Shown here: in pieces, positions 5,796 to 21,213 of the stretch
Position numbering within the stretch: the first letter of the stretch is position 1
How the letters are laid out: each line of letters starts with the position of its first letter
Virus record (IMG/VR): IMGVR_UViG_3300005842_000038
Span: 1-27,955 of that record
Source of the DNA: a virus
Direction: 5' to 3' (one strand)
DNA: 27,955 nucleotides
Program-made: the position numbers and the translations under genes
Notes under the pieces: model-generated
What the model was told of the DNA's origin: nothing
Seen by the model: the letters and a program-made list of their open reading frames with translations, nothing else
Database searches by the model: none

Positions 5796-6248
5796 TTAAG
5801 GATGAGATGGAAACAACGGGTAGCGAATTCGAAAGATCATTTGCAGATCGCAGTCCATTGCCAGACTGTGATTCAAGCGATAGTCAGTGCGTTGATAATA
5901 GACGCCTCCATTCGTCGTCACTATATCGTTTAATTCTTGGTCGAGCATGACAGCGGTGATGATACGCGCCATCAACTCATTGATGTCAGGACCAACATCC
6001 TCCGGACGACCTCCCATTGAAACGACGATCAACGGCAGCATGTTGACGATGATAACTGCACGGCCCTTTTTCCAAATGTGCTCTAACTCCGGTGCAGCTT
6101 CCTCATCACCGTCCAGAAGGATTGCCATAGGTCTAACAGTTTCTGGAAACTCATCCAGATTTCTCGCCACATTTTTTATGTCTGTCACACCGTTCAATAT
6201 TTCTACCAATCTCGCTAATATATCTTCGCGCTTGCAACCGACCATCAT
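5796..6248 (-). CDS. Tail terminator-like protein (gpU-type)
   Basis: This 150-residue protein lies between a head-closure-type gene and the tail tube, where tail terminator genes sit. Terminators cap the finished tube and dock it to the head. The N-terminus (REDILARLVEILNGV) is the helix typical of this group. After that come a NLDEFPETVRPMAILLDGDE segment and a mid region with GPDINELMARIITAVMLDQEL, consistent with the alpha/beta fold of gpU-like proteins. The ATG overlaps the previous stop by 4 bases. Assignment rests on position plus general resemblance. Confidence 0.72.
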   Translation of the reverse strand: MMVGCKREDILARLVEILNGVTDIKNVARNLDEFPETVRPMAILLDGDEEAAPELEHIWKKGRAVIIVNMLPLIVVSMGGRPEDVGPDINELMARIITAVMLDQELNDIVTTNGGVYYQRTDYRLNHSLAMDCDLQMIFRIRYPLFPSHP

Positions 6249-6598
6249 GGCGCTTGCTCATCGCTGAGTAATAAAAGAATTTCACCTTGACCAGCCGGCG
6301 AGGGGGCCATCTGGTAGCTCTTAATTCGCCAACGTCTACCATTGATAATCAATTCTCCCTTATAAAAATATTCCTTTAAGTCGGTCACACCAGAGTTAGT
6401 AATGTCAGCCTGCCTAACAAACGCCGATGGACGCTGCGTCTGCATGTCTATGAAGCTATGCGTCGGCAGACTGGTGCCATCAGTGTAATCAATGGCACGC
6501 AAGGAAGTCCGCTCACCGGTCGTGCGAATGAATGTGGCATCCACCGCAATATCGCTGGCATAAATCGGGTCAAGAAGATTGTCCTGCCAGATAGTCAT
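6245..6598 (-). CDS. Head-tail joining / head closure-like protein
   Basis: This 117-residue beta-rich protein contains YFYKGELIINGRRWRIKSYQ followed by a polar stretch and EILLLLSDE. A small beta-barrel with a G-x-x-W-R-I/V segment near the end is typical of head-tail joining proteins of the lambda gpFII / Gifsy-2 type, which seal the connector and accept the tail. It lies between an unknown 105-residue protein and the terminator. Overlaps of 4 bases on both sides indicate a coupled translation unit. Confidence 0.65.
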   Translation of the reverse strand: MTIWQDNLLDPIYASDIAVDATFIRTTGERTSLRAIDYTDGTSLPTHSFIDMQTQRPSAFVRQADITNSGVTDLKEYFYKGELIINGRRWRIKSYQMAPSPAGQGEILLLLSDEQAP

Positions 6599-6912
6599 GA
6601 TGTTGTCGTGTCAGAAACGTTGGCCAGATTTCCAGCCAATTCAAAAAAGCCATCCTCAGCAGAATCAGGACTGAATGACCGAACAGTCCAGTATGTGCGC
6701 GCTGGTTCTGCCGCTTGGCTGTCCCAGGTGCCATACCATGTGTCATCAGTCTGATTAGCTAGCTCTACTTCTTCATTTTCCCGCGTACCTGATTGATTGA
6801 GAAAATTGATTGTAACCGTTGCCGAGCTTGGCAATAGCGGCGTTCCATCCCGGTTCAAAAATTGAACCGTAAACTCGACTTCGTTTCCTCTATCAATGGT
6901 TTCAACCAGCAT
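6595..6912 (-). CDS. Small beta-rich protein with Ig-like look, unknown function
   Basis: This 105-residue protein begins MLVETIDRGNEVEFTVQF and continues with SSATVTINFLNQSG, WYGTWDSQ and TYWTVRSF. The alternating strand pattern suggests a single Ig-like beta sandwich, as found in phage baseplate or fibre accessory proteins such as the BppU N-terminal domain. I cannot place it in a family with confidence. The ATG overlaps the stop of the giant repeat protein by one base and its end overlaps the head-closure gene by 4 bases, so it is made together with virion proteins. Confidence 0.7.
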   Translation of the reverse strand: MLVETIDRGNEVEFTVQFLNRDGTPLLPSSATVTINFLNQSGTRENEEVELANQTDDTWYGTWDSQAAEPARTYWTVRSFSPDSAEDGFFELAGNLANVSDTTTS

Positions 6913-9900
6913 CAGGCAACTCTTTTCTTGTGTGGATAATCAATGACCGTAGATGGCTTCAGCCTTGGAGCAACGCCCACTTGTGCCGCAGTCTTGACGG
7001 TCACAAGCGTTTGCGGCGTACCATGTCCTATTCCGACCGTAACCGTCTTGATAATATTTCCAGCGCCGATCAGGTATTTGGATCGAACCAACAACGACCC
7101 AGTGCCATTGAGCGTTGCAGCAGCGACCATAATCTGCTGCGCATAGGCAGCAACATCGCCTGAGCCAACAAAGTTAATGCTAGCCCCAACGCCTTGATCT
7201 GCCGTTGCCGACAACGATCCATTGCCCAGCAACCGTGCAGAAATACGCAATCGCAAGGTGTCTGCCGCTGTAAGCGATCCTGCACCGGCAAACTGTGCCA
7301 CAGCATAGCGAACACGGATAGCCGACGCTGACAGGCTACCTACGCCATTGAACGCTACGATTATTGGCTTACGCAGTCCGGCACGGAATAGCGCATTGCC
7401 AGTTCCGGCAAACGTACTTGCTGCTGCCATCCTCTCGTGCGCAGAACAAATTATAGAGCTGGATCCTGGCAACATTGCCAGAATTACCATGCGCTGGCGT
7501 GCAGAGGCAGAAATACTACCAGAACCAATAAATGATGCACTGGACCGTAACCGAAGCTGCGCCGAAACTGACACATCGCCATGACCAATAAATGATATTA
7601 TGGCGAACAGTTTTTGCCGAGCAACGGCGCTTAAATTTCCCTCTCCGGCAAATAACGCGGAAGTGACTTTAACTGTGGACGATAGAATGTTTGCGGATAA
7701 GCTGCCAGCGCCAGAGAAGGCCGTAACCGCGACCATTCGCTGCCGCATGGCAACAGACAAGTTGCCAGACACAACAAGTGTGGCAAAGGCAACCATTCGC
7801 TGCCGCATGGCAGCAGACAGATTGCCGCTACCAGTAAATATAGATACTCCAGAAAGATACCGCAGTGCGGACGCGGACAGGCTTCCTGCGCCGTTGAACG
7901 TTGCAATAGCTGGCAACCGACGAATTATAGTTGCAGAAAGATTACCGGAACCATTGAATGCGGAAGATGCAGCGAGCCTAAGTCTAGCGATAGAATTAAG
8001 ACCACCAGCGCCAATGAACAAAGCTGAGGAAATTAATCGAAGACGCGCAGAAGAATTCAGATCACCTGCGCCATTCAATGATGCTACTGCATCATAAAGA
8101 TTTGCAGCAAAGGACAGATTTGTCGATAGCGATCCAACACCGTCTAAAGTCGCAACAGCGTTTAGATTTAATGTAGCAAAGGATGTTAGAGCGCCACTAC
8201 CGTTAAACGTGGCAATAGCAGGTGTTACTCTGATCGCATCGATTGAGAAATCGCCGCTACCAACGAACGTAACGCTTGCAGCAAAATTCTGTAATGTTGC
8301 AGCCGATAAATCACCTGCACCAATAAATGCAGCGTTGGCTACTAGCCGTAGTCTTGCTGAAGTATTTAGATCGCCGGTACCAGTAAGGAGTACTGTGCCG
8401 TCCCACAATGTCGCGGCACCGACAATCGTGGCCATCGCATCAAGATTGCCGACGCCGTTGAATGTCGCAGCAGAGAACAATCTAAGTCTAGCCGAGGTAT
8501 TTAAATCACCAGCGCCAATAAATGTAGCGCTAGCAGCAAGCCTCAAGTTTGCAGTCGTATTTAGATCGCCAGCGCCATCGAACGTGGCCAATGCTGGAAT
8601 ATAACGAATGGCATCAGCAGAAAGATCGCCAGCACCGTTAAATGTCACGAAGGCAATTAGTTTCTGCAGCGCAGAAACATTTAGCTCGCCAACGCCAACA
8701 AACGAAGCTGAAGTGACCAATCGCAGCGAAGCTATGGCTGAAAGACTTCCTGCTCCGTTGAACGTCGCAATCCCCGGCATAAGCCGGATCGCATCTACGG
8801 AAAGATTTCCGCTGCCAACGAAAACTGCAGATGCAGCAAGACGAAGAGAAGCCAGAGCAGATAGATTTCCAGCACCAACAAACGTAGCTGACGCAACAAG
8901 CCGCAACGAAGCCGTAGCGGAAAGATTTCCAGCACCGTTAAATGTCGCCAATCCCGGCATAAGCCGGATGGCATCGGCAGCTAGATTTCCCGCTCCGTTG
9001 AATGTCGCTGCTGCGACCATACGCAGCGAAGCAGGAACAGAAAGATTGCCAGTACCATTAAAGACCGCCGTACCGCTTAATAGGTTGGCACCGGAAACAA
9101 TGCTGGCATCGACGTTTAGATTTCCCGAACCTGCAAACAGCGCAGAGGCATTGATAGCATGCGCTGGAACGGTAATGACTGGAGTTACGGAGTACTGATC
9201 AAGCGGAATGCCGTTGACATAAACACGGAAGCTTAGTGTGTCTCCGGTATTTAAGCTGCCATCAACGTCGAGCTTTAAGCCAAACTCCAGCTCTGTCAGA
9301 GCAGAAGCCGGGAAAGCAAGGCTGGCAACCTCGCCAGTCTCATCATACTCACCGACCGCAAAACGCGAAGCCTGAACTGACAGGCTTCCCGATCCAGCAA
9401 ACAGCGCCGAACCAACCAGCGGAACACGCGCAGGTATCGTGGCATCAGCAGAAAGATTGCCGGATCCTACAAATATCGATCTGGCAGTTAAGATAAGATT
9501 TGCTAATGAATTAAGATTACCAACACCGTTGAACGTCGACAGTGCTGGCATATAGCGGATCGCATCGACAGAAAGATTTCCGATGCCAACGAACGCCACA
9601 ACAGCGCGCAGACGTAACAGCGCCGTTGTGTTGAAGTCTCCAGCACCGACAAAAGCAACCTGCGCCGCCAGGCGCTGACGTGCTGTTACGTTGAAATCTC
9701 CAGCGCCGACAAAAGAAACCTGCGCGGCCAAGCGCAGCCTGCCGACTGCGGAAAAATTTCCTACGCCATTGAATGATACAGACCCTGCACGCGTTAGCGC
9801 CGGAATTGTTATAGTCGGCGTGACGGAATATTGATTGATCGCAAGACTGTTGACGTAGATGCGAAACTGTAAGGTGTCAGTCTGATTTAATGTATCAAGA

Positions 9901-10193
9901 TCGAGCTTTAAACCAAACTCCAGCTCAGTCAGCGCATTGCCAGCAAATGAAAGACTGGCAACCTCACCCGTCTCATCATATTCACCGGTCGTGAATCGAT
10001 CTACACTCGCTCTTAGACTTCCGGCACCAGCAAAGGAAGCAACACCAGACAATGCTGGCTTTGAAGCTATAGTCGCATCGACATTTAGATCGCCTGCTCC
10101 AGTACCGGTAAAATCAGCATCAAATTGCTGTATAGTATTAACAATAAGCGTACTGGAAAGACCAGAAGTGCTGCTGCCTTGCCTGACTGTCAT
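6912..10193 (-). CDS. Giant 20-residue-repeat virion protein (1093 aa)
   Basis: The protein is built of about forty tandem units close to 20 residues, consensus roughly A-T-F-x-G-A-G-N/D-L-S-A-x-A-x-x-R-L-x-A-x, from about residue 26 to 1035. The regular Gly and hydrophobic spacing suggests a beta-solenoid or similar elongated fold; this is inference. Two copies of a different module (about 66-132 and 277-346) interrupt the array; each starts with EYDETGEVASL and ends QYSVTP-ITVPA. The last about 55 residues (IKTVTVGIGHG onward) differ and may anchor or trimerise the protein. There is no signal peptide or enzyme motif. It lies between a tail-fibre-type gene and tail genes, so a fibre, spike or capsid decoration role is likely. 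A second member of the same repeat family starts at 555. Confidence 0.88.
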   Translation of the reverse strand: MTVRQGSSTSGLSSTLIVNTIQQFDADFTGTGAGDLNVDATIASKPALSGVASFAGAGSLRASVDRFTTGEYDETGEVASLSFAGNALTELEFGLKLDLDTLNQTDTLQFRIYVNSLAINQYSVTPTITIPALTRAGSVSFNGVGNFSAVGRLRLAAQVSFVGAGDFNVTARQRLAAQVAFVGAGDFNTTALLRLRAVVAFVGIGNLSVDAIRYMPALSTFNGVGNLNSLANLILTARSIFVGSGNLSADATIPARVPLVGSALFAGSGSLSVQASRFAVGEYDETGEVASLAFPASALTELEFGLKLDVDGSLNTGDTLSFRVYVNGIPLDQYSVTPVITVPAHAINASALFAGSGNLNVDASIVSGANLLSGTAVFNGTGNLSVPASLRMVAAATFNGAGNLAADAIRLMPGLATFNGAGNLSATASLRLVASATFVGAGNLSALASLRLAASAVFVGSGNLSVDAIRLMPGIATFNGAGSLSAIASLRLVTSASFVGVGELNVSALQKLIAFVTFNGAGDLSADAIRYIPALATFDGAGDLNTTANLRLAASATFIGAGDLNTSARLRLFSAATFNGVGNLDAMATIVGAATLWDGTVLLTGTGDLNTSARLRLVANAAFIGAGDLSAATLQNFAASVTFVGSGDFSIDAIRVTPAIATFNGSGALTSFATLNLNAVATLDGVGSLSTNLSFAANLYDAVASLNGAGDLNSSARLRLISSALFIGAGGLNSIARLRLAASSAFNGSGNLSATIIRRLPAIATFNGAGSLSASALRYLSGVSIFTGSGNLSAAMRQRMVAFATLVVSGNLSVAMRQRMVAVTAFSGAGSLSANILSSTVKVTSALFAGEGNLSAVARQKLFAIISFIGHGDVSVSAQLRLRSSASFIGSGSISASARQRMVILAMLPGSSSIICSAHERMAAASTFAGTGNALFRAGLRKPIIVAFNGVGSLSASAIRVRYAVAQFAGAGSLTAADTLRLRISARLLGNGSLSATADQGVGASINFVGSGDVAAYAQQIMVAAATLNGTGSLLVRSKYLIGAGNIIKTVTVGIGHGTPQTLVTVKTAAQVGVAPRLKPSTVIDYPHKKRVA
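9156..9365 (-). repeat. Second copy of the EYDETGEV module inside the repeat protein
   Basis: Residues about 277-346 of the giant repeat protein match residues about 66-132 closely (shared EYDETGEVASL, ALTELEFGLKLD, QYSVTP). The copies are offset by 211 residues (633 bp). The module looks like a small beta-sandwich, probably a binding or spacer domain. Confidence 0.75.
9798..9998 (-). repeat. First copy of the EYDETGEV module inside the repeat protein
   Basis: Residues about 66-132 hold the first copy, with FRIYVNSLAINQYSVTP as its C-terminal part. It is the partner of the copy at 9156-9365. The DNA of the two copies remains recognisably similar, for example around 9961 and 9328. Confidence 0.75.
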
Positions 10194-10194
10194 A

Positions 10195-10575
10195 TCAACT
10201 GATCGTTATTTTTAACGCGCCAGCGGAAAAGCATGGATTGTCCGTTGCCGACTTGCAGCCCAAGCCTGCCGCCAATGTGCCGAACGCCAAACGATTTCCG
10301 CCAGCAACAGCGTCATATAAATTGAACCCAACCGCAGTCGCTGCAGCCGTCGCCGATGCTCCGGTCACAGCCGCCACATTGGTAGCCGAGCCTGTAGGCG
10401 AATTGGCCGCTGCAAAGGTGCAAGTTACGCGGCTGACAAAGGGACCGTCCGAAGCACCATTGACATTCGGCGTGCCTGTAGCGAATTGCAGAAAGCGTCC
10501 AGCAGGTCGCGTAGCCGCTGCTGCACCCGTCCACCAGTCAATCGTTTGTTTCGACAGATAAGACGTTATCGGCAT
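10195..10575 (-). CDS. Short tail-fibre-type protein, paralog of 12926-13321
   Basis: This 126-residue protein starts MPITSYLSKQTIDWWTGAA and ends ALKITIS. It is built like the protein at 12926-13321: both have YLSKQT-x-DW, a central Ser/Arg-Val-Thr stretch (FVSRVTCTF against FSRVTALFG), and a C-terminal ALTI-S. The family resembles small beta-rich phage proteins often annotated as tail fibre protein (N-terminal LS-x-Y-L pattern, an x-GLS/QFATG strand, then repeated Ala/Thr-rich strands). It probably forms trimers or rings on the virion. It abuts the YkgJ-like gene upstream with no gap and lies 1 base before the giant repeat protein. Confidence 0.75.
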   Translation of the reverse strand: MPITSYLSKQTIDWWTGAAAATRPAGRFLQFATGTPNVNGASDGPFVSRVTCTFAAANSPTGSATNVAAVTGASATAAATAVGFNLYDAVAGGNRLAFGTLAAGLGCKSATDNPCFSAGALKITIS

Positions 10576-12925: not shown

Positions 12926-13321
12926 TTACGAAAGCGTAATAGTCAACGCTCCGATAGCGATCTGCAGGCTGTCGCCAGCGAGGAAGCTGCGCGCTGTTTG
13001 CAGCGTGCCGTACCACAACATGTTCGATGAGTTGATCGGCGATCCGTCAAACAACACGATGCCGGACGCGGCACCCGGAGATGAAAACGGTCCAAACAGA
13101 AGCGAAGCTGTATTCGAAGCCGACTGCGTTGGCGAAGCAGCCGCCCCGAACAATGCCGTCACACGGGAGAAATTTGTTTGGCTTCCCATTTCCGAAGCGC
13201 TGACAGAAGTCGGCGCGCCGTTGGAAAGTCCAACCCAGCGGTTGGCTGGCTGGGTTGCCGAAGCGCCACCAAGCTGCCAGTCAAGCGTCTGTTTCGAAAG
13301 ATAAGCAGATACGTTAGCCAT
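12926..13321 (-). CDS. Short tail-fibre-type protein, paralog of 10195-10575
   Basis: This 131-residue protein starts MANVSAYLSKQTLDWQLGG and includes NRWVGLSNGAP, SRVTALFGAA and a C-terminal ALTITLS. It is homologous in layout to 10195-10575. The VGLS-NGAP strand after a short N-terminal helix is typical of small phage tail-fibre proteins. It is the first gene after the sugar cassette, with an AGGAG ribosome site about 8 bases before the ATG, so translation restarts efficiently here. It may be a trimeric adaptor or cap on the virion surface. Confidence 0.78.
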   Translation of the reverse strand: MANVSAYLSKQTLDWQLGGASATQPANRWVGLSNGAPTSVSASEMGSQTNFSRVTALFGAAASPTQSASNTASLLFGPFSSPGAASGIVLFDGSPINSSNMLWYGTLQTARSFLAGDSLQIAIGALTITLS

Positions 13322-13350: not shown

Positions 13351-14118
13351 CTACTCAGCAGCTTGCAGTTGATTCCGGCTGACCAATTCCCGTATTAGCT
13401 CCGGATATTTTTCACTAAATGCCTTCATCATGTAGCTGTCGCGTATGTACTCCGATGATGCGGCAATTTCCAAACGCGCAAACAGGTCCTCCTTGTCCAG
13501 CACCACCGGCCAATTGAACATGGCATGAAAGCCGAAATGGCGTGAAATCTCGCTGGGGCGGCAGCACTCAAAGGCGAACTCGTGCGCGATCCGTTCTGGT
13601 GCCCAGATAAATCCTGTCTGTTCTAATTGAAAGCGATATTTCCGGCAGAGCAGATCGTCATCAATATGCGTATTGCAGGGAAACTTCTGCCTGTGATCGT
13701 AAAGGTAACGTTTAAGACGCGTCGAAACTAAGGAGAAGCCGCCGTTGCCAACGTTCTTACCGTCCTTGTACCACCACGGAGCGCCGATATAGTCATAACG
13801 TAGATAGTCTTCGCGCCACATCGATGTGTCCCAAATCCAGCTATCCCACTGGATGTTGAGTGTGTGGCTGGTGGAAACCATAGGCGGTATATCGTACCAC
13901 CACGAGCGCGACCAGCCGAGTTTGCTGGGCCAGTCAGGTACGGTCTTGACCTTCGGCTTCAGATAATTGAAATTGTAGAATTCCGAAGGACGGTCGGTGA
14001 CGATAATCAAGTCACCGAAGTCTGCCTTGTCTATGCAGTCCTGGATCGCCAGCCTTGCTAGCTCGTGCTCACGCGTCTCAACCATGACCAGCGTGACTTC
14101 AGGAAGGTTCAGCTTCAT
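13351..14118 (-). CDS. DUF5672-like glycosyltransferase
   Basis: This 255-residue protein contains QWDSWIW (90-96), YDYIGAPWW (108-116) and VGNGGFS (123-129), followed by HIDDDLLCRKY and FAFE (181-184). That set is the signature of the DUF5672 group of putative GT-A sugar transferases, where the D-x-W and GNGGFS segments surround the donor site. No membrane segment is seen, so it should act in the cytoplasm. It is the last gene of the sugar cassette and overlaps the methyltransferase gene by 4 bases. Donor and acceptor cannot be read from the sequence. Confidence 0.82.
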   Translation of the reverse strand: MKLNLPEVTLVMVETREHELARLAIQDCIDKADFGDLIIVTDRPSEFYNFNYLKPKVKTVPDWPSKLGWSRSWWYDIPPMVSTSHTLNIQWDSWIWDTSMWREDYLRYDYIGAPWWYKDGKNVGNGGFSLVSTRLKRYLYDHRQKFPCNTHIDDDLLCRKYRFQLEQTGFIWAPERIAHEFAFECCRPSEISRHFGFHAMFNWPVVLDKEDLFARLEIAASSEYIRDSYMMKAFSEKYPELIRELVSRNQLQAAE

Positions 14119-14828
14119 TGCTTAACCTTCATTACGAGCCAATTCATCGTGCAGGGTCGCCCCTCACAAACTGCCATCCAGCGATGCAGCGATTCACGCT
14201 GCCGCAGAAATAAATATTTATTCGGATCGCGAGCGCCTTCAAAGATTTGTTCTATATTGTGCGTCCCACAAAATCGATCATACAAAATTCTTGACATATT
14301 ATAATCTTCGGTATCGTGACACTCGACAATAATGTCTGCTTTCAATAAATCCGAAAACCAGTCCGGCCTCAGATAATTAATCTCATCACCTTCTACATCG
14401 CAAATGACAAGGTCCATGTTGCGCATGAATTCATCGACTGTCGTATCAACATTGACATGCACGGCATTCAGTTTGGCTGCCTTCTGCAATATGGCTAATG
14501 ATTTTTTTGAAATATCAACTCCGTAAATATCAGCCTGCGGCAATCGTCGCGCCAACCCAATAGCATAATATCCTTCAGCACATCCAAGGTCGATAATCTT
14601 TGGTTGGCTCAATTTGGCAAGCCGCTCGATCTGATATTCAATAGCCGGATGCAGTTCTTCTTCATAGCATCCAAGACACTCTGTACTCAGATTGCCATCG
14701 TCCCAATCTTTTTCATCCAGCAATAGCATTCCAGCAAATGGACCACTTTGCACGATGCCAGAAGTCTCTGAATAAATCCAATGATCGACGGAATTATAAA
14801 GCTTCAATTCCTTGGTCATTGTTTCCAC
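14115..14828 (-). CDS. FkbM-like SAM-dependent methyltransferase
   Basis: This 237-residue protein has the SAM-binding motif I as KIIDLGCAEGYYAIG (77-91), an acidic ribose-binding turn GVDIS (103-107) and DLVICDVEGDE (139-149). The last matches the D-V-E-G-x-E motif of FkbM-type sugar O-methyltransferases. It most likely methylates a hydroxyl on a sugar added by the neighbouring glycosyltransferases; this is inference from context. The gene looks more AT-rich by eye than its neighbours, especially about 14200-14720, which hints at separate acquisition. It overlaps the GT9-like gene by 13 bases and the DUF5672-like gene by 4. Confidence 0.83.
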   Translation of the reverse strand: METMTKELKLYNSVDHWIYSETSGIVQSGPFAGMLLLDEKDWDDGNLSTECLGCYEEELHPAIEYQIERLAKLSQPKIIDLGCAEGYYAIGLARRLPQADIYGVDISKKSLAILQKAAKLNAVHVNVDTTVDEFMRNMDLVICDVEGDEINYLRPDWFSDLLKADIIVECHDTEDYNMSRILYDRFCGTHNIEQIFEGARDPNKYLFLRQRESLHRWMAVCEGRPCTMNWLVMKVKQ

Positions 14829-15871
14829 AATCGTTCGATGTTTGTCATCAAACGCTCCGCAGAAATATCCGCCATGCAGGACGCAACCTGCGTTTCCTTT
14901 CCCTCCTCCTTAAACGGTACGCAAGTATCCAGCGTGTTATGTAAACGGTGACAAGGCCAGCAAGGAACGTTGTCTGTATCAGCATGTAGCGTCGTTGTGT
15001 TCACCCAATGCTTGGTGATATTTTCATCGGACGCATGCGACACCATGACGATCTTCGGCATTGGCTCCATGGCCGTCGCCCAAGCTAGACCGGTGTCTGG
15101 AGACACAACCAAATCAGACAACAAGACTTGCGTCAGGCTGCGGCGCGTGGACCAGTGCTGATGACCGCCTGGATCGGAGTTATCTGGTGATAGAGCCAAA
15201 TGCAGTCCGCCGGTTCCGCTGTGCGCGCGCTTGACATCCTCCATGACCGACTGCGCCATTTCGAATTGCTTGCCGCCGATCCCAAACAGCACAACAGGAA
15301 TTTTCAATTCCTTAATGACGCGGCAAATAACCTGCGGTGAATATGGATAAACCTTGTCAACGCGCGAGCCGCCAATAATCCAAGCCAGATATCTGCCGCC
15401 AATTTGCTCACGCGTCTTCTTGGCACGCTCAACTTCTTCCTCCGTAGGATAAAACAGCGGTGCGCCAAACTGGTATGGCTGGGGCAGTCCGACTATATCC
15501 CAAGCTGTTTCCAGATACGAACCCTTGCACAGCTTACGCCTGTAATCTTGCGGCCACCAGAAGTTGGTATCGGTTTCAAACAGCGCGTGCTGCTTTTCCA
15601 CCGAATGGCTTAAATTCCACAAGCCGCCCATGTACTCGTGCGAACGGGCAATGAACCATTTGGTCCACTCTCCCGGACCATTGGGAATGTCCTTTTCGCC
15701 CTTGACCGAAAGCTTGTCCACGTTTGGATTGTTGAGGTAGACCACATGGAATGACTCCGATGTGATCACCTCGACAAGATAACCCAAACGCTTCAATGGC
15801 GCGAGAACGGAAGCCGCGATAAGATTATCGCCCAGACCGCCAAGGCGGCAGACACATGCCCAGCCAGCCAT
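14816..15871 (-). CDS. GT9-like (heptosyltransferase-type) glycosyltransferase
   Basis: The N-terminus reads CRLGGLGDNLIAASVLAPLKR (from residue 8), the classic GT9 G-x-x-GD start seen in ADP-heptose LPS transferases. Later DLVVSPDTGLAWATA (253-267) corresponds to the GT9 D-T-G-x-x-H/W-x-A-A donor loop. The C-terminus has cysteines at 304, 307, 317 and 332 in a CWPCH ... C ... SCM arrangement, which also occurs in LPS-core-type members. Length (351) is normal for the family. The enzyme should be a soluble cytoplasmic GT-B protein. Whether it uses a heptose donor is unknown. Confidence 0.85.
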   Translation of the reverse strand: MAGWACVCRLGGLGDNLIAASVLAPLKRLGYLVEVITSESFHVVYLNNPNVDKLSVKGEKDIPNGPGEWTKWFIARSHEYMGGLWNLSHSVEKQHALFETDTNFWWPQDYRRKLCKGSYLETAWDIVGLPQPYQFGAPLFYPTEEEVERAKKTREQIGGRYLAWIIGGSRVDKVYPYSPQVICRVIKELKIPVVLFGIGGKQFEMAQSVMEDVKRAHSGTGGLHLALSPDNSDPGGHQHWSTRRSLTQVLLSDLVVSPDTGLAWATAMEPMPKIVMVSHASDENITKHWVNTTTLHADTDNVPCWPCHRLHNTLDTCVPFKEEGKETQVASCMADISAERLMTNIERLWKQ

Positions 15872-16104
15872 CAGCCGACAACCTTGCCACCGCGAATGAT
15901 GCTGATTTTGCTCTCATCGATCTTCATGGTTCCCAAACCTCCGACACCGGCAACTGGTACTTGCTGCTTGGCTCTGACCAGATGATGTATCGAACAAGGC
16001 TGCGTTCCTGGGACAATATCCCACTTGTCATCGATCAGCTTCTGCACTTCCTGTTGCCAGTTCTGATCAATTGGCAGCGTTACCGTCTTATATTCCATTT
16101 CCAT
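15871..16104 (-). CDS. Small protein of sugar cassette, DUF1737-like N-terminus
   Basis: This 77-residue protein reads MEMEYKTVTLPIDQNWQQEV then LIDDKWDIVPG. A short Y-K-x-V start, helix and G/K-W-x-x-x-x-G motif resemble DUF1737-type small domains, but the match is loose. The C-terminal half includes VAGVGGLGTMKIDESK. It is followed immediately by the GT9-like gene (one-base overlap). The function is unknown; it may be a small regulatory or adaptor subunit, but nothing in the sequence proves that. Confidence 0.65.
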   Translation of the reverse strand: MEMEYKTVTLPIDQNWQQEVQKLIDDKWDIVPGTQPCSIHHLVRAKQQVPVAGVGGLGTMKIDESKISIIRGGKVVG

Positions 16105-16118
16105 TTTCTGTCCTTCCT

Positions 16119-16832
16119 TTATTTATAGTTTTGTTGAACCCATGCGATCTGCGGTGGCAGACTATTCCAAGGCACTCCATGAAAGAAAACAATGCGTGCA
16201 TTTTCCGGAAGTACTTTCGAATTCCTCAGATGCTTACGCCAAGAGTAAACCCCGTCTTCCGTCGTCCACATCTTCTCTCCCTTGCCGAGAACATAAGTGA
16301 TCCAGCCTTGATCACTCCCCTTGCGTCCCGCCCGATTGGCCTCCTGCGGCGATTTCAGCGGATCAAAACGCTCCCAAACTTGGCTGCGCGAACCAGCAGT
16401 CATCATCCACATGCTGCCATTGTAGCCGGGCAGATTGTTATCCTGCTTAAGAAACGTATCGCCCCAGACGATGAAATCATCGTCGCGATCCCAGAGCGGA
16501 GCCAGATCGCCTGTGGCGACAAAGTCAAGATCAAGCGAAACAAAGCGTTCACCAATAATGTCTTTCGCTTCCTTGCTGAACGCCTTCAGACGGCAATAAC
16601 AACTTGGCCCAGAGGTGAATGATGGATTTCGTAAATTTCTGTAATCTGACCACAAAGGAATGATGCGGATCGATTTGTCAATTCCACTCGCATCATCAGT
16701 AATGCAGTTGATACGATGTTGTCCGCTGTAGTGCCGCCGCACCATAGAGGCCGCGATATTGACATGCTGAGCAGAGAAGTGTGAACGGTAGCCTCCTCTT
16801 GGCTTCCACTTCCAGAAGACGACATCAAGCAT
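16119..16832 (-). CDS. GT-A fold glycosyltransferase with DxD motif (GT8/GT32-like)
   Basis: This 237-residue protein has FVSLDLDFVATGDL with an LDLD metal/nucleotide motif at 100-103, a DDDFIVWGD strand, SMWMMTAG, then GSDQGWITY (172-180) and a final VFFHGVPWN (215-223). DxD followed by SDQ and a late H-G motif is characteristic of retaining GT-A enzymes such as GT8 and GT32. There is no signal peptide. A short gap of 14 bases separates it from the 77-residue gene, containing a purine-rich ribosome site. It overlaps the 16825-17454 gene by 8 bases. Confidence 0.8.
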   Translation of the reverse strand: MLDVVFWKWKPRGGYRSHFSAQHVNIAASMVRRHYSGQHRINCITDDASGIDKSIRIIPLWSDYRNLRNPSFTSGPSCYCRLKAFSKEAKDIIGERFVSLDLDFVATGDLAPLWDRDDDFIVWGDTFLKQDNNLPGYNGSMWMMTAGSRSQVWERFDPLKSPQEANRAGRKGSDQGWITYVLGKGEKMWTTEDGVYSWRKHLRNSKVLPENARIVFFHGVPWNSLPPQIAWVQQNYK

Positions 16833-17454
16833 AGGCCAGCAAATTTTGTTTTATCGTTGGCCATTCCTTATCGCGCCAGCGCTCAAACACCGGTTTTTCA
16901 TCCAGTTGCTTTGGCCGACCCTTTGATGTCTGGTCGTACTTGCCAGGATTTTTCTTGTTGGCATAGTGTCGGTGTTCGACAATGATATCCTCTTGCAATC
17001 CGGCAAACTTCATCTCGCGGGAAATCAATTCCAGCATCGTATCTCCGTAGTAATGAATAAACTTTGGATTGAATATATAGCCAAGCTTTCGAACAAGATC
17101 ACCGTGAATAACAAAAGCACCGCAGCGGCGGGTAAACAGATCATTGGCATAGGCGATCCCGCTCTTGGCGCGCATGATCAACATAACATCCCAGTGTGGC
17201 GTGATCGGCACCATGTCGTCGCTCAACGAACCGTACCAGGCGCAGTCGGGAAACCTCTTGAAGATGTTGTTGTGCTTCTCGACGTACTTGCACTGCCTGC
17301 CGATATCGAATTGCCACTGTTCAGGCAAGGAAACATTTGAGTAGAGTTTAGCCTGATCCTTATCTATAGCCACAATGCCTGGAGTTGACGGAGGAGCCGT
17401 GTCGAACATGTGCCTCAAACGATCCGGACGGTTGCGCGAAGGCAGTATCCACAT
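16825..17454 (-). CDS. GT-A-like glycosyltransferase (GT2-type)
   Basis: This 209-residue protein begins MWILPSRNRPDRLRHMFD, the SRNRP-type start of GT2-like enzymes. It carries YGSLSDDMVPITPHWD with the acidic D-D pair at 79-80, a cysteine-containing RRCGAFVIHGD, and YYGDTMLELI with a later VEHRHY. The S-D-D-M-x-P placement matches the catalytic DxD region of GT-A transferases found in phages. It overlaps the neighbouring genes by 8 bases and 1 base. Substrate unknown. Confidence 0.75.
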   Translation of the reverse strand: MWILPSRNRPDRLRHMFDTAPPSTPGIVAIDKDQAKLYSNVSLPEQWQFDIGRQCKYVEKHNNIFKRFPDCAWYGSLSDDMVPITPHWDVMLIMRAKSGIAYANDLFTRRCGAFVIHGDLVRKLGYIFNPKFIHYYGDTMLELISREMKFAGLQEDIIVEHRHYANKKNPGKYDQTSKGRPKQLDEKPVFERWRDKEWPTIKQNLLAYA

Positions 17455-18146
17455 CAGTCATTTTTTCCTGCGCGCTTGAACCTTTCCATTCCCAGTCGCA
17501 TGAACGTTCCTGTGTGACCGATGTCAATGGCATGCACGCCTTTGTTTGCCAGCCTTGCCGCCAAGATCGTCGCTGTCGCTCCCAGACATAGCAGCACCGT
17601 CCCTTGCGGCTTGCCTATCTCCGCCTCAATGCGATCAATCTCCGCATAGGCATGGAGTGCCGGACCGCGCACCTCGCGCACGCTAGCTGCATCGCTCAGC
17701 GCTTCTGGCGTGAAGGAAAGATCAGCAGACGGTTTATCCTCCCAGACCAGCGTGATATTTTTGCCGCGCCATAGCCGCTTAACCTTGTCCCAGTAATCAG
17801 TACGATCAATCCAAGGCGCGCTATCAGGCCGAGAAATGAAAGCAGAGCCATAAACAGGTAGTTTGTAAAGCTTGGTATATTGCCGCTCCGTATAAGGTCG
17901 CCAACTGTGCACTCGCGGTGTCTTTTGTATATTCGGAATGCAAATTAGAGCAGCAGTTGGCGTAACCAGCAGGTCACGCAATTCGTTTCTCAGTTCATCA
18001 GATGGCCGCTGCGAACGCGCCATTCCCCACAGACATAAGCGCAGTTCACCATCCCCATAGCGCGCAATCGACTTGCCAGCCAACGCCAGGTCCAGCGTCT
18101 CGTCCTCTGACAAGACTTTCGGGTAAGTCACAGAACACGGTCCCAC
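17454..18146 (-). CDS. GT-D-fold (DUF1792-like) glycosyltransferase
   Basis: The protein of 230 residues has ARYGDGELRL (28-37), the R-x-GDGE motif that marks GT-D (DUF1792) transferases known from bacterial adhesin glycosylation. It also has LICIPN, YGSAFISRPD, and a Rossmann-like C-terminal TVLLCLGATATILAARL with DIGH (208-211). The GT-D fold was described in an enzyme that extends glycans on a serine-rich surface adhesin, which fits a protein acceptor here, though that is inference. It overlaps the GT2-like gene by 19 bases. Confidence 0.8.
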   Translation of the reverse strand: MGPCSVTYPKVLSEDETLDLALAGKSIARYGDGELRLCLWGMARSQRPSDELRNELRDLLVTPTAALICIPNIQKTPRVHSWRPYTERQYTKLYKLPVYGSAFISRPDSAPWIDRTDYWDKVKRLWRGKNITLVWEDKPSADLSFTPEALSDAASVREVRGPALHAYAEIDRIEAEIGKPQGTVLLCLGATATILAARLANKGVHAIDIGHTGTFMRLGMERFKRAGKND

Positions 18147-18844
18147 TCAAAGTCCAGAGTTGTTATCTTCCCAGTGCGCCCCAAACTTCGCTTGCGCGCC
18201 ATGGTTTGCAAGCGCCGCTGGTCATTGATCGGTCCGCGCCGCTCATAATTTGTCGTGCTGGCATCATCGATCACTTCACGCGGATAACGAATGACCGGAC
18301 AGGTTTTCAACACAACATTGGTTGCGTGCCTGAGCAATCTTCGCCGTGGTGCACCGTCGCTGCCGTACTGGCCGCACATATCTTCGTCATAGCCGCCCAT
18401 CTTGTCCCAGTACATCTTTTTGGTCAGCGCGAAGATGTTGTGGCCTGGACCTTTGGCATTCGGCGTCATGTGCGGCGCATCGATACGCGGGAAGGTAAAG
18501 AACACTCTTTCGTTAGTCTGCTCTAAAAGTTTCTGCAGCGAACCAGTCGGCAAAGCGTGATCCATATCGGAGAGAAACAGCCAGCCTTCATCAGCTTGAT
18601 AAGCACCTAAATTCCGCGCCCCATCCTGATGCCATGGCATGTCAACCTTGACGCGGTAAATGGAAAGCTTCGGCAACACAGGTCTGACAACATCGAGCGC
18701 CGCCCAGCGCGGCGAAGCATCGTCAACAACAATGACGGAAACCTTGTCCTTCAATTCATCCGGGTAATTCGACCAGATGCGATATTGCTCGGACAGCATC
18801 AGTGGATTGTCATAATAACTATAAACAAGCGTCAGCGAATTCAT
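18128..18844 (-). CDS. GT2-like glycosyltransferase
   Basis: This 238-residue protein opens MNSLTLVYSYYDNPLML and has SVIVVDDASPRW (36-47), then GARNLGAYQAD (75-85) and FLSDMDHALP (90-99) as the DxD site. GGYDEDMCGQYGSDG (150-164) acts as the second acidic motif. This order is that of inverting GT2 enzymes. A C-terminal basic region follows. The gene overlaps both neighbours (19 and 4 bases). It would be cytoplasmic. Confidence 0.85.
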   Translation of the reverse strand: MNSLTLVYSYYDNPLMLSEQYRIWSNYPDELKDKVSVIVVDDASPRWAALDVVRPVLPKLSIYRVKVDMPWHQDGARNLGAYQADEGWLFLSDMDHALPTGSLQKLLEQTNERVFFTFPRIDAPHMTPNAKGPGHNIFALTKKMYWDKMGGYDEDMCGQYGSDGAPRRRLLRHATNVVLKTCPVIRYPREVIDDASTTNYERRGPINDQRRLQTMARKRSLGRTGKITTLDFEWDRVL

Positions 18845-19491
18845 GCCGCAACGGTTTCTAGTTTCGTATCCTGTCTGATCATTTCTTCAAAATCGACTAT
18901 GGGCCACAAATCGGCCCAAGCGCTGTCCGGACTGGCGTTGACGCACTCCACGCCAAGTTTAACCAAATCCTTGGCTACCGGCCCAAGGTCGCGCCGCTGC
19001 TTGTCGAACGTTCCGGGCATCTGCTTCCACTGGTGCGGATAATCAGTATGATGATGCGTCTGCTTGCCGTCCGCTCCGCCATTCTTGCCGTCAGCACCAA
19101 CCAACACTACCTTCTTGACGCCGAGATGAACGGCAATATTTATAGCACTTGCCAGCGTGGTATATTTAATCACGACATAACCAGGATCAGGAGAGAGGCC
19201 GGGAGGGCTTTTTCGCTTCATGCGCAGCAGTCGAGGGTGCCGGGCCAGCGATGAAGCGCAGATGATCTTCCCCTTGAACCGTTCTATTTTCTTAACGTTG
19301 GCATCCCACCAACGTGTATCCGAAAACATCAAATAATCAGCCCAAGGCGCGCGGTAGAAACTGGAATTAATCACAATCAGCTTGTGGCCTTGCAGCTTGT
19401 CGATATCCAGCAATCCTACAGACGGTCCACCGCACAAAATGAAACAAGTTTCCCCTTCCCAGTCCTTCTTGAAAACGTGGTAAGTAGCCAT
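18841..19491 (-). CDS. DUF115/GT42-like Rossmann protein, first gene of sugar cassette
   Basis: This 216-residue protein contains FILCGGPSVGLLDI (17-30), APWADYLMFSDTRWW (48-62), VVLVGADG (128-135) and a His run at 146-148. The C-G-G-P-S start and the ADYL-x-x-x-D-x-x-WW segment occur in a set of phage proteins. They resemble DUF115 (MptE-like) and bacterial CstI/II sialyltransferases. I infer a nucleotide-sugar-using enzyme, but the family link is from memory and uncertain. It lies directly downstream of the connector gene with no gap beyond its ribosome site inside that region. Confidence 0.7.
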   Translation of the reverse strand: MATYHVFKKDWEGETCFILCGGPSVGLLDIDKLQGHKLIVINSSFYRAPWADYLMFSDTRWWDANVKKIERFKGKIICASSLARHPRLLRMKRKSPPGLSPDPGYVVIKYTTLASAINIAVHLGVKKVVLVGADGKNGGADGKQTHHHTDYPHQWKQMPGTFDKQRRDLGPVAKDLVKLGVECVNASPDSAWADLWPIVDFEEMIRQDTKLETVAA

Positions 19492-20115
19492 CTAGGTGAC
19501 AACCCGCTTGAATGGTTTTATCAAATCGGCAACCGAAGCTGGCAACGCTGCGTTGCTGCCGCTCACGTTGGCATTGAAATAAGAAACACGACGGTCACCG
19601 TGCTGGATGTCGCGGATCGACACATCACGCTCGCCAGAAACGCGGCCATCTTCGATCAGCTCGATAACGGCGCGCGACAGCGAGGCAGGCGCACCTTCAG
19701 GAAGCTCATAGCCACCGGTATAGGTGACAACAATCTCGCCATTAAAACCCCATCCCCAACCCCAGCTTGAATTCGGCTTGCGCCACAACAAACCATTCTC
19801 ATGGTTCAACCGATAATCATTGGTCGTCAGCTGAGTATGATTCGATTCAATTGAAATAATTTCCACAACCGGATAGCGCGAAAGCGCTAACGCCTTTGCA
19901 TAAGTACAGCCGAAGAATGTTTCTACAACGGTCTGCTTGGCAAAAACGCGGTCGCAGACTTCACCCAGCAGGATTGAATAGGATGTAATCTCGCTGGCTG
20001 TAACTGCATCGTCTGCCGTGTTGCCGGTGATGCCCAACTCTTCGTTAACAGCCTCAACTGTTGTCAAGTCATAGACGAGTGCGGTATTTGCATCTGGCTC
20101 GACAATCGAGTGCAT
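19492..20115 (-). CDS. gp6-like head-tail connector protein
   Basis: This 207-residue protein begins MHSIVEPDANTALVYDLTT with VEAVNEELGITGNTADDAV, the helical N-terminus of HK97 gp6-like connector proteins. That part is followed by SYSILLGEVCDRVFAKQ and a beta-rich middle (YPVVEIISIES). Connectors of this type bind beneath the portal and prepare the site for closure and tail docking. It lies between the collagen-like gene and the sugar cassette; in typical genomes the head-closure gene would follow immediately. The closure-type gene here is about 12.9 kb away at 6245, so the module has been split by inserts. Confidence 0.82.
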   Translation of the reverse strand: MHSIVEPDANTALVYDLTTVEAVNEELGITGNTADDAVTASEITSYSILLGEVCDRVFAKQTVVETFFGCTYAKALALSRYPVVEIISIESNHTQLTTNDYRLNHENGLLWRKPNSSWGWGWGFNGEIVVTYTGGYELPEGAPASLSRAVIELIEDGRVSGERDVSIRDIQHGDRRVSYFNANVSGSNAALPASVADLIKPFKRVVT

Positions 20116-21213
20116 TTAAAGCGCCCTGCCGTCAAACCCAACCATGCGGCCATCCTGGCCTTTCGGACCCATCGGACCGGCTGGACCTAGTGCTCCATCC
20201 TTTCCATTGCGTCCGCACTTGACCGCAAGTCGCCAATGCTTAGCACCACCAACGGTGCCCGGACGCTCAATCGTTTCCTGCTTGCAGATGAATAACGATC
20301 CACCGGTCGTGACCACTGCACCACGCGGATAGGTGATCCCTTCACGCCAAATCTCATGGTCGAAGTCTGCAAGCGTTGCTTTGTTGTACCAGAATTCCTT
20401 GACCTGATCCGCACGGCGGAAGCGATAACCGAAGCGCAAGCCTTCTTCCATCGCTTCCATGTCATCAAAGCCAAAGCCATCGCGCCCAGGAACGCCGTCC
20501 TTACCAGTCTCACCCTGCGATCCGTCCTTACCGACCACAATACCGAGGTTCTGTGTACCGCCATCCGTCTTGGTAATGACAAGTTCACCGGATCGATTGA
20601 TGATCGCCCCTGCAAGACCCACTCCATCTTTTCCTGGCGCGCCGTCCTTGCCATCCTTCGGCATCTGGATGGACTTGAGAACCAGCGCAGCGATGTCCGC
20701 AATATCCGGTGCAACGGCATCCTTGCCGTTCGCTCCGTCTTTGCCGTCAGCTCCGTCTTTGCCATCCTTCGGCATTTGAATTGACTTAAGAACTAGCGCC
20801 GCAACGTCTGCGATATCTGGCGCAACAGCATCCTTGCCGTTCGCGCCGTCTTTTCCGTCAACGCCGTCTTTGCCATTGACTGCCACTGGCAGTTTTTCAA
20901 ACAACTCGGCAACCTTGCTGTCCACCATTGCCGTAAGGCTAGGCAGCAAGTCATCGATGCTGACGCTTTTGCCGTCCTGCCCGTCCTTGCCCGGAGCGCC
21001 ATCTTTTCCATTCTTCGGCAACTGCAAAGACTTGAGCACCAGCGCAGCAACTTCGGCAGGATCGGCATCCTTACCATCGCGGCCATGCTTCAATTCGCGC
21101 GCCTCTAGGTCAGCAATCTTCTTTTGCAACGGCGCAACGCACTCTTTCATTAGCGCCACAATGCCTGCACTAAATTCTTTTTGAAACTCGGTATTATCTA
21201 GCATTGGTGTCAA
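20116..21213 (-). CDS. Collagen-like virion protein with carbohydrate-binding-like C-terminus
   Basis: This 365-residue protein has an N-terminal helical segment (residues 8-42). After it come several G-x-y blocks, mostly GKDG units, at about 44-50, 67-83, 113-128, 150-167, 187-198 and 228-247, with a final GPAGPMGPKGQDG at 344-356. Between them sit repeated PDIAD-V/I-AALVLKSIQMP elements. Residues about 280-333 (WREGITYPRGAVVTTGG, then HWRLAVK) resemble the CBM5/12-type carbohydrate-binding module often seen in such phage proteins. It probably forms a trimeric fibre on the capsid or neck. It overlaps the portal gene by 20 bases and abuts the connector gene. Collagen-like proteins of some viruses are glycosylated, which is interesting next to the sugar genes. 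Confidence 0.83.
   Translation of the reverse strand: MTPMLDNTEFQKEFSAGIVALMKECVAPLQKKIADLEARELKHGRDGKDADPAEVAALVLKSLQLPKNGKDGAPGKDGQDGKSVSIDDLLPSLTAMVDSKVAELFEKLPVAVNGKDGVDGKDGANGKDAVAPDIADVAALVLKSIQMPKDGKDGADGKDGANGKDAVAPDIADIAALVLKSIQMPKDGKDGAPGKDGVGLAGAIINRSGELVITKTDGGTQNLGIVVGKDGSQGETGKDGVPGRDGFGFDDMEAMEEGLRFGYRFRRADQVKEFWYNKATLADFDHEIWREGITYPRGAVVTTGGSLFICKQETIERPGTVGGAKHWRLAVKCGRNGKDGALGPAGPMGPKGQDGRMVGFDGRAL
20635..20856 (-). repeat. Tandem 111-bp duplication in collagen-like gene
   Basis: Two copies of a 37-residue unit (residues about 120-156 and 157-193) containing GKDGANGKDAVAPDIAD then AALVLKSIQMPKDGKDG differ by only a few residues. A more diverged third copy lies at residues about 46-78. 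The near-identity suggests recent duplication that changes fibre length. Confidence 0.8.

Follow-up and report, generated by a model that had tools for sequence, protein, structure and literature searches.

Glycosylation of virion proteins by phage-encoded transferases has been described for mycobacteriophages Che8, Corndog and Myrna, in which, according to the account of Freeman et al. (2023) cited in PMC12363180, the acceptors are the capsid and tail tube proteins. Among bacterial enzymes, those of the Maf group O-glycosylate Ser and Thr residues of flagellin, with CMP-Neu5Ac and CMP-Kdo accepted by some (PMC11339370), and the TibC/BAHT autotransporter heptosyltransferases are GT9-related proteins that carry a C-terminal multi-cysteine motif and have a repeat-rich protein encoded next door. 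In TibC the iron-finger cysteines are C339/342/358/370 (PMC4358343).

Several sequenced phages carry genes of related kinds. Phages D3 (orf7, orf12 and orf13) and PAJU2 (ORF010-012) have a small set consisting of a GT42/Maf-like, a GT9-like and a methyltransferase gene, and P1 has a GT42/Maf-like gene with a glycosyltransferase-like partner among its late morphogenetic genes (pmgO-pmgP-ppp-pmgQ); the records call these genes hypothetical, structural or 'putative morphogenetic'. A literature search of partial coverage found no description of a phage GT42/Maf cassette.

Here we analyse an IMG/VR viral contig of 27,955 bases, referred to below as the window, which is incomplete and in which nine genes for glycan-modifying and associated proteins lie in the head-neck block. 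We propose that they form a cassette for glycosylating virion protein with sugar-nucleotide donors of the host and one methylation step, a reading to which we assign a probability of about 0.6. The window resembles Che8, Corndog and Myrna, as these are described in PMC12363180, in encoding its own transferases and in its putative virion acceptor, but differs from those phages of actinobacterial hosts in having a multi-gene cassette with a GT42/Maf-like anchor within the head-neck block, and in being known from its genes alone. The three enzyme genes of D3, PAJU2 or P1 likewise make up a smaller set than that of the window.

Organization of the cassette

All assigned genes of the window are on the minus strand, as are all window features whose coordinates follow. 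Reading from the right, genes for the terminase, a protease-capsid fusion and the portal are followed by that for a collagen-like (GXY repeat) protein adjoining the portal (20116..21213; PF01391, E 6e-8) and by the head-tail adaptor gene (19492..20115; phrog_442, E 1.6e-26), which forms the upstream border of the cassette. The nine genes occupy 19491 to 13351, and beyond them lie a phrog_240 head/fibre gene as the downstream border (12926..13321; E 3.8e-12), a tail protein gene matching phrog_5939, the gene for a 1093-aa repeat protein, and the head closure gene Hc1 (6245..6598; phrog_82, E 0.00099), the far border of the insertion slot. Genes for a gp10-like protein, the major tail protein and the tape measure follow Hc1. 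Two contigs from other IMG/VR samples are 100% identical in nucleotide sequence to parts of the window; one (L002) spans the entire cassette and the other (L011) the portal region only.

The original prediction placed nine tightly packed genes between the connector and fibre genes, and all nine ORFs are present between the adaptor and phrog_240 genes, overlapping by 1-19 nt or abutting, with a widest internal gap of 14 nt. The absence of transmembrane segments is borne out by a Kyte-Doolittle 19-residue mean that peaks at 1.67, and flippase, polymerase and other membrane proteins are likewise absent from the cassette. The further statement that sugar-nucleotide synthesis genes are lacking applies only to the 28 kb analysed here, the viral contig being incomplete. 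A search of the window detected neither tRNAs nor RNA families, and promoter-like matches near the cassette did not exceed those in shuffled sequences. As judged from sequence families, the cassette is confirmed to encode seven glycosyltransferase-like proteins, one SAM methyltransferase and one conserved 77-aa protein.

The GT42/Maf-like anchor protein

The anchor gene of the cassette (18841..19491) encodes a GT42/Maf-like glycosyltransferase of 216 aa that matches phrog_4603, 'alpha-2,3-sialyltransferase' (E 3e-23), and retains a GPS motif. A profile search of the PDB with the family matched CstII/CstI (E 0.003-0.017). The structure model (pLDDT 90.7, from an alignment of 21 sequences) found CstII with Foldseek (E 7e-5), while VIA-align placed the flagellin-glycosylating Maf 5mu5 at the top (Z 16.0 over 189 residues, rmsd 3.3), followed by CstI/II (Z ~12; Cst-I 12.3). 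The phrog_4603 match and the model confirm the GT42-like identity suggested for this protein at the outset. The HPPK (MptE) fold of the archaeon M. jannaschii scores nearly at the CstII level (Z 11.7), and thus the anchor fold by itself is no proof of sugar transfer. We consider that the anchor enzyme probably transfers a sugar of the ulosonic acid type. While it shares the Maf fold, it is a stand-alone domain without the extra Maf domains, and flagellin is not its expected acceptor.

With the PAJU2 member as query, the family comprises 72 phage records at E 1e-3, among them PAJU2, D3, P1/P7, Klebsiella phage Eowyn and Caulobacter jumbo phages. PAJU2 ORF010 (L008 7780-8349) is annotated as a 'structural protein' yet is a GT42/Maf-like homologue. 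In P1 (L013 5941-7127 and 7798-8499) both pmgO and pmgP are GT42/Maf-like, while pmgQ belongs to the phrog_1962 glycosyltransferases, all three being 'putative morphogenetic' in GenBank.

Other cassette proteins

Four transferases make up the remainder of the first half. A GT2-type (GT-A) protein with a DxD motif (SDMDH; 18128..18844) matches PF00535 above the cut-off (E 7e-6); its D93 and D95 are retained in homologues, and it is 40% identical to TVGG_00044 of Tetraselmis viridis virus S20. The GT-D glycosyltransferase with a DGE motif (17454..18146) is firmly assigned by PF08759 (E 1.6e-22; 80.8 bits against a curated cut-off of 27), with RYGDGE retained, and is 45% identical to S20 TVGG_00047; its nearest solved relative is GalT1/DUF1792 (4pfx, E 7.2e-18), and in single-protein PDB searches with the GT9, GT2 and GT-D proteins a meaningful match was obtained for GT-D only. 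A glycosyltransferase of phrog_14945 follows (16825..17454; E 2.6e-18), with homologues in 63 Streptomyces phage records, most of them annotated as glycosyltransferases. Of the two GT2-like proteins originally proposed, therefore, the product of 18128..18844 is upheld by PF00535, whereas that of 16825..17454 matches a PHROG glycosyltransferase family and not a Pfam GT2 model. The fourth, a GT-A glycosyltransferase of phrog_1962 with a DLD motif (16119..16832; E 1e-10), is 48% identical to S20 TVGG_00041, and its D101 and D103 are at least 90% invariant among 21 homologues that include P1 pmgQ.

The second half begins with the gene for the 77-aa protein, s77 (15871..16104), a real ORF to judge from its syntenic, 61% identical counterparts in two other contigs (L146 and L147) and a dN/dS of ~0.22. 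The adjoining 351-aa protein (14816..15871) has no Pfam match of its own, but its 51% identical homologue in contig L099 reaches PF01075 (23.4 bits against a cut-off of 22), and this homologue points to a GT9 relationship. A structure model of this protein was discarded (two sequences in the alignment, pLDDT 34.5). The class I SAM methyltransferase (14115..14828; PF13649, E 1e-8) had been described as FkbM-like, a label that is weak, as PF05050 scores 14.5 bits against a cut-off of 22.7 (E 0.039) and generic SAM methyltransferase models fit far better. The last gene (13351..14118) encodes a DUF5672 protein (PF18922, E 1.4e-14) with the GT-A-like motifs GNGGFSL and DDD.

The GT9-like protein carries C-terminal cysteines at C304, C307, C317 and C332, a CX2C-X9-C-X14-C spacing that differs from that of TibC. 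It has no significant direct sequence match to TibC/BAHT, and the similarity to TibC is weak, appearing at E 0.3 and only with a family related to the window GT9 protein. We treat a TibC-like role for it as a lead only.

Occurrence in other phages

The same gene set was sought in other phages in two ways. The first set comprised 98 portal-neighbourhood loci, of which 88 remained after removal of nine reference phages and the window, each with at least 4 kb downstream; as they were ranked by similarity when fetched, they are a non-random sample. Of these 88 loci, 24 (~27%) have a GT42/Maf-like gene on the downstream side of the portal, followed by varying glycosyltransferase and methyltransferase genes. 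When 71 cassette ORFs were searched against Pfam, the matches were to GT9 (4), GT2-type (two models, 3 each) and several methyltransferase models (up to 8 members each), along with DUF5672, GT8, MptE-like and an HNH endonuclease. The GT42/Maf-like gene is gained and lost on the portal tree in a nearly random pattern (15 changes, against 17.8 when shuffled). The second set, obtained with the GT-D protein as query, consisted of 50 further contigs, some of them near-duplicates, and the GT-D gene was recovered in 49. Thirty-eight of these 49 have a GT42/Maf-like gene, in 30 cases together with GT2 and phrog_1962 genes; 21 cassettes have head genes upstream and neck or tail genes downstream, with inserts of 4.8-7.8 kb, and a match on the opposite strand was seen in a single locus.

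Related cassettes occur in S20, PAJU2, D3, Psp6 and dozens of IMG/VR contigs, where they fill the same slot. The cassette is a real, recurrent module that is not unique to the window, and the original view of it as unusual for a proteobacterial phage has to be given up. In S20 (NC_020840, L152) GT42/Maf-like, GT-D (45%), GT2 (40%), phrog_1962 (48%) and methyltransferase genes lie in the interval between the major capsid protein (MCP) and Hc1 genes; unlike the window, S20 possesses a pair of GT42/Maf-like genes along with further, different transferases, and shows no match to the s77-GT9-methyltransferase-DUF5672 half or to phrog_14945. One contig from a Hydrogenedentota MAG (L114) has a GT42/Maf-like gene and several glycosyltransferase-like genes in its portal-adaptor interval, so this type of cassette may reach beyond the Proteobacteria.

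Alternative targets

Host LPS and phage DNA are both less likely targets than a virion protein. For LPS, the enzymes might act late in infection to alter this or some other glycan of the host surface, perhaps keeping progeny from re-adsorbing to debris or excluding other phages. Enzymes of the LPS core and of lipooligosaccharide are found in families GT9 and GT42 (CstI/II; the profile of a related phage GT9 family matches WaaF, E 1.2e-4), and D3 is seroconverting, although by a different gene set (PMC12373910). O-antigen seroconversion genes of the D3 type (iap, beta-polymerase, O-acetylase) have no family match in the cassette and bring no transmembrane segment to it, and the lack of any membrane protein, flippase or polymerase argues further against this reading, as does the overlap of the genes within the structural operon in many phages, which is not the layout of an independently placed moron. 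On balance we think a host-glycan target unlikely.

The nine genes might also represent two adjoining systems, one (GT42/Maf, GT2, GT-D, phrog_14945 and phrog_1962) acting on a head or neck protein and the other (s77, GT9, methyltransferase and DUF5672) on the fibre proteins (phrog_240 and the 1093-aa protein). Contigs L146 and L147 retain the second half (s77 61%, GT9 83%, methyltransferase 75% and DUF5672 56% identity) and the fibre genes, and have a D3-type pair of GT9-like and methyltransferase genes in place of the window's GT2, GT-D, phrog_14945 and phrog_1962 genes. In L099 the GT9, DUF5672 and methyltransferase genes lie with phrog_240 and a repeat protein gene on the portal side of the adaptor, apart from the GT42/Maf-like gene, which is truncated at the contig end. 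These arrangements show that the cassette is built from exchangeable modules, and with the two halves exchanged separately there may be two acceptors or two glycans; the single methylated multi-sugar glycan originally envisaged is one possibility beside others. The many repeats of the 1093-aa protein, in most of which the eighth residue is Ser or Asn, would suit a separate fibre acceptor, and the four cysteines of the GT9 protein resemble the TibC iron finger (PMC4358343). Against this, the independent cases are few (the window, L146/L147 and L099), L146 and L147 were obtained with a GT9 query, and the sequence similarity to TibC is as weak as noted above. Two separate systems therefore seem to us distinctly improbable.

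A role of the transferases in base hypermodification, with phage DNA as the target, is very improbable. While the relative L146 has a TET-associated glycosyltransferase (PF20691, E 8e-40), that gene sits elsewhere in the contig, outside the cassette. The PF20691 family was not found in D3, PAJU2, P1, Psp6 or any further cassette-bearing record tested, apart from one weak sub-threshold match, and a late structural operon would be an odd location for DNA modification. A Tet_JBP search, run without a positive control, gave no match. The PF20691 gene lies near a ParB-like gene (L150 8734-9669, G001:44776-45411, the contig of L146).

Selection and candidate acceptors

Comparison with L146 showed that the cassette proteins are under purifying selection: synonymous sites are near saturation and the proteins are conserved, with NG86 dN/dS values, rough because of this saturation, of 0.07 for the GT9 protein and ~0.02 for phrog_240. 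The window has two copies of phrog_240, at 12926-13321 and 10195-10575, the first being 96% identical to its L146 counterpart, against 40-83% for its neighbours.

The MCP and the neck proteins are candidate acceptors; loci of the S20, D3 and PAJU2 types all have them as neighbours of the cassette. In the present lineage the 1093-aa protein (6912..10193), which repeat analysis indicates to be solenoid-like with ~40 repeats of 20 residues, is a further candidate. Its excess of NxS/T (26 against 11.5 expected) was rejected as a sequon signal, being a by-product of the repeat. A partial ORF at 1-555 of the window, also on the minus strand, has the same F-x-G-x-G repeat as the 1093-aa protein and represents a second repeat protein cut at the contig end. 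The collagen-like protein was considered and rejected as an acceptor. Cassette-bearing loci have a median of 82 GXY residues against 21 (p 0.006 before phylogenetic correction), but the difference disappears once the portal tree is taken into account by phylogenetic GLS (p 0.49), and PAJU2 has the GT42/Maf-like gene without GXY runs, so that a collagen-like acceptor is not supported.

Proposed function

Glycosylation of virion protein remains the best-supported reading of these enzymes, which are soluble, as predicted, and encoded in a virion operon, with acceptor and product proposed from that context. That the genes lie in a morphogenesis operon speaks for late expression and does not point to the substrate. 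We suggest that the cassette would be expressed late with the structural genes, and that its soluble cytoplasmic transferases would attach sugars to a structural protein of the phage, either ahead of assembly or while it proceeds, much as Maf acts on flagellin. The GT-D, GT2, phrog_1962 and phrog_14945 enzymes may then extend or vary the glycan, one cassette enzyme would methylate it, and the half containing the GT9-like protein, methyltransferase and DUF5672 protein could be a second set added to the first. The donors would be host sugar nucleotides, the simplest candidates being CMP-Kdo and ADP-heptose, which are found in LPS-making Gram-negative hosts, and the benefit might be shielding or the tuning of adsorption. 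A CRISPRi screen (PMC10695390) showed that P1 does not need pmgO or pmgP to grow lytically, which fits decoration rather than assembly.

A bolder proposal, which we regard as doubtful, is that this is a widespread modular protein-glycosylation system of tailed phages, proteobacterial and other, with a stand-alone Maf/GT42-fold anchor and including the P1 and D3 genes; it would coat virions with Kdo and heptose, sugars of the host LPS core, giving the particles host-like sugars. It would further hold that in the window the second half O-glycosylates the 20-residue-repeat fibre in the manner of TibC.

If virion glycosylation is indeed the function of these genes, it would extend from the characterized mycobacteriophages to many phages of Gram-negative hosts, including P1 and D3, and the 'putative morphogenetic' P1 genes pmgO, pmgP and pmgQ would gain a definite role. 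The question would thereby become testable in a laboratory phage, and the answer would have a bearing on phage adsorption and on antibody recognition.
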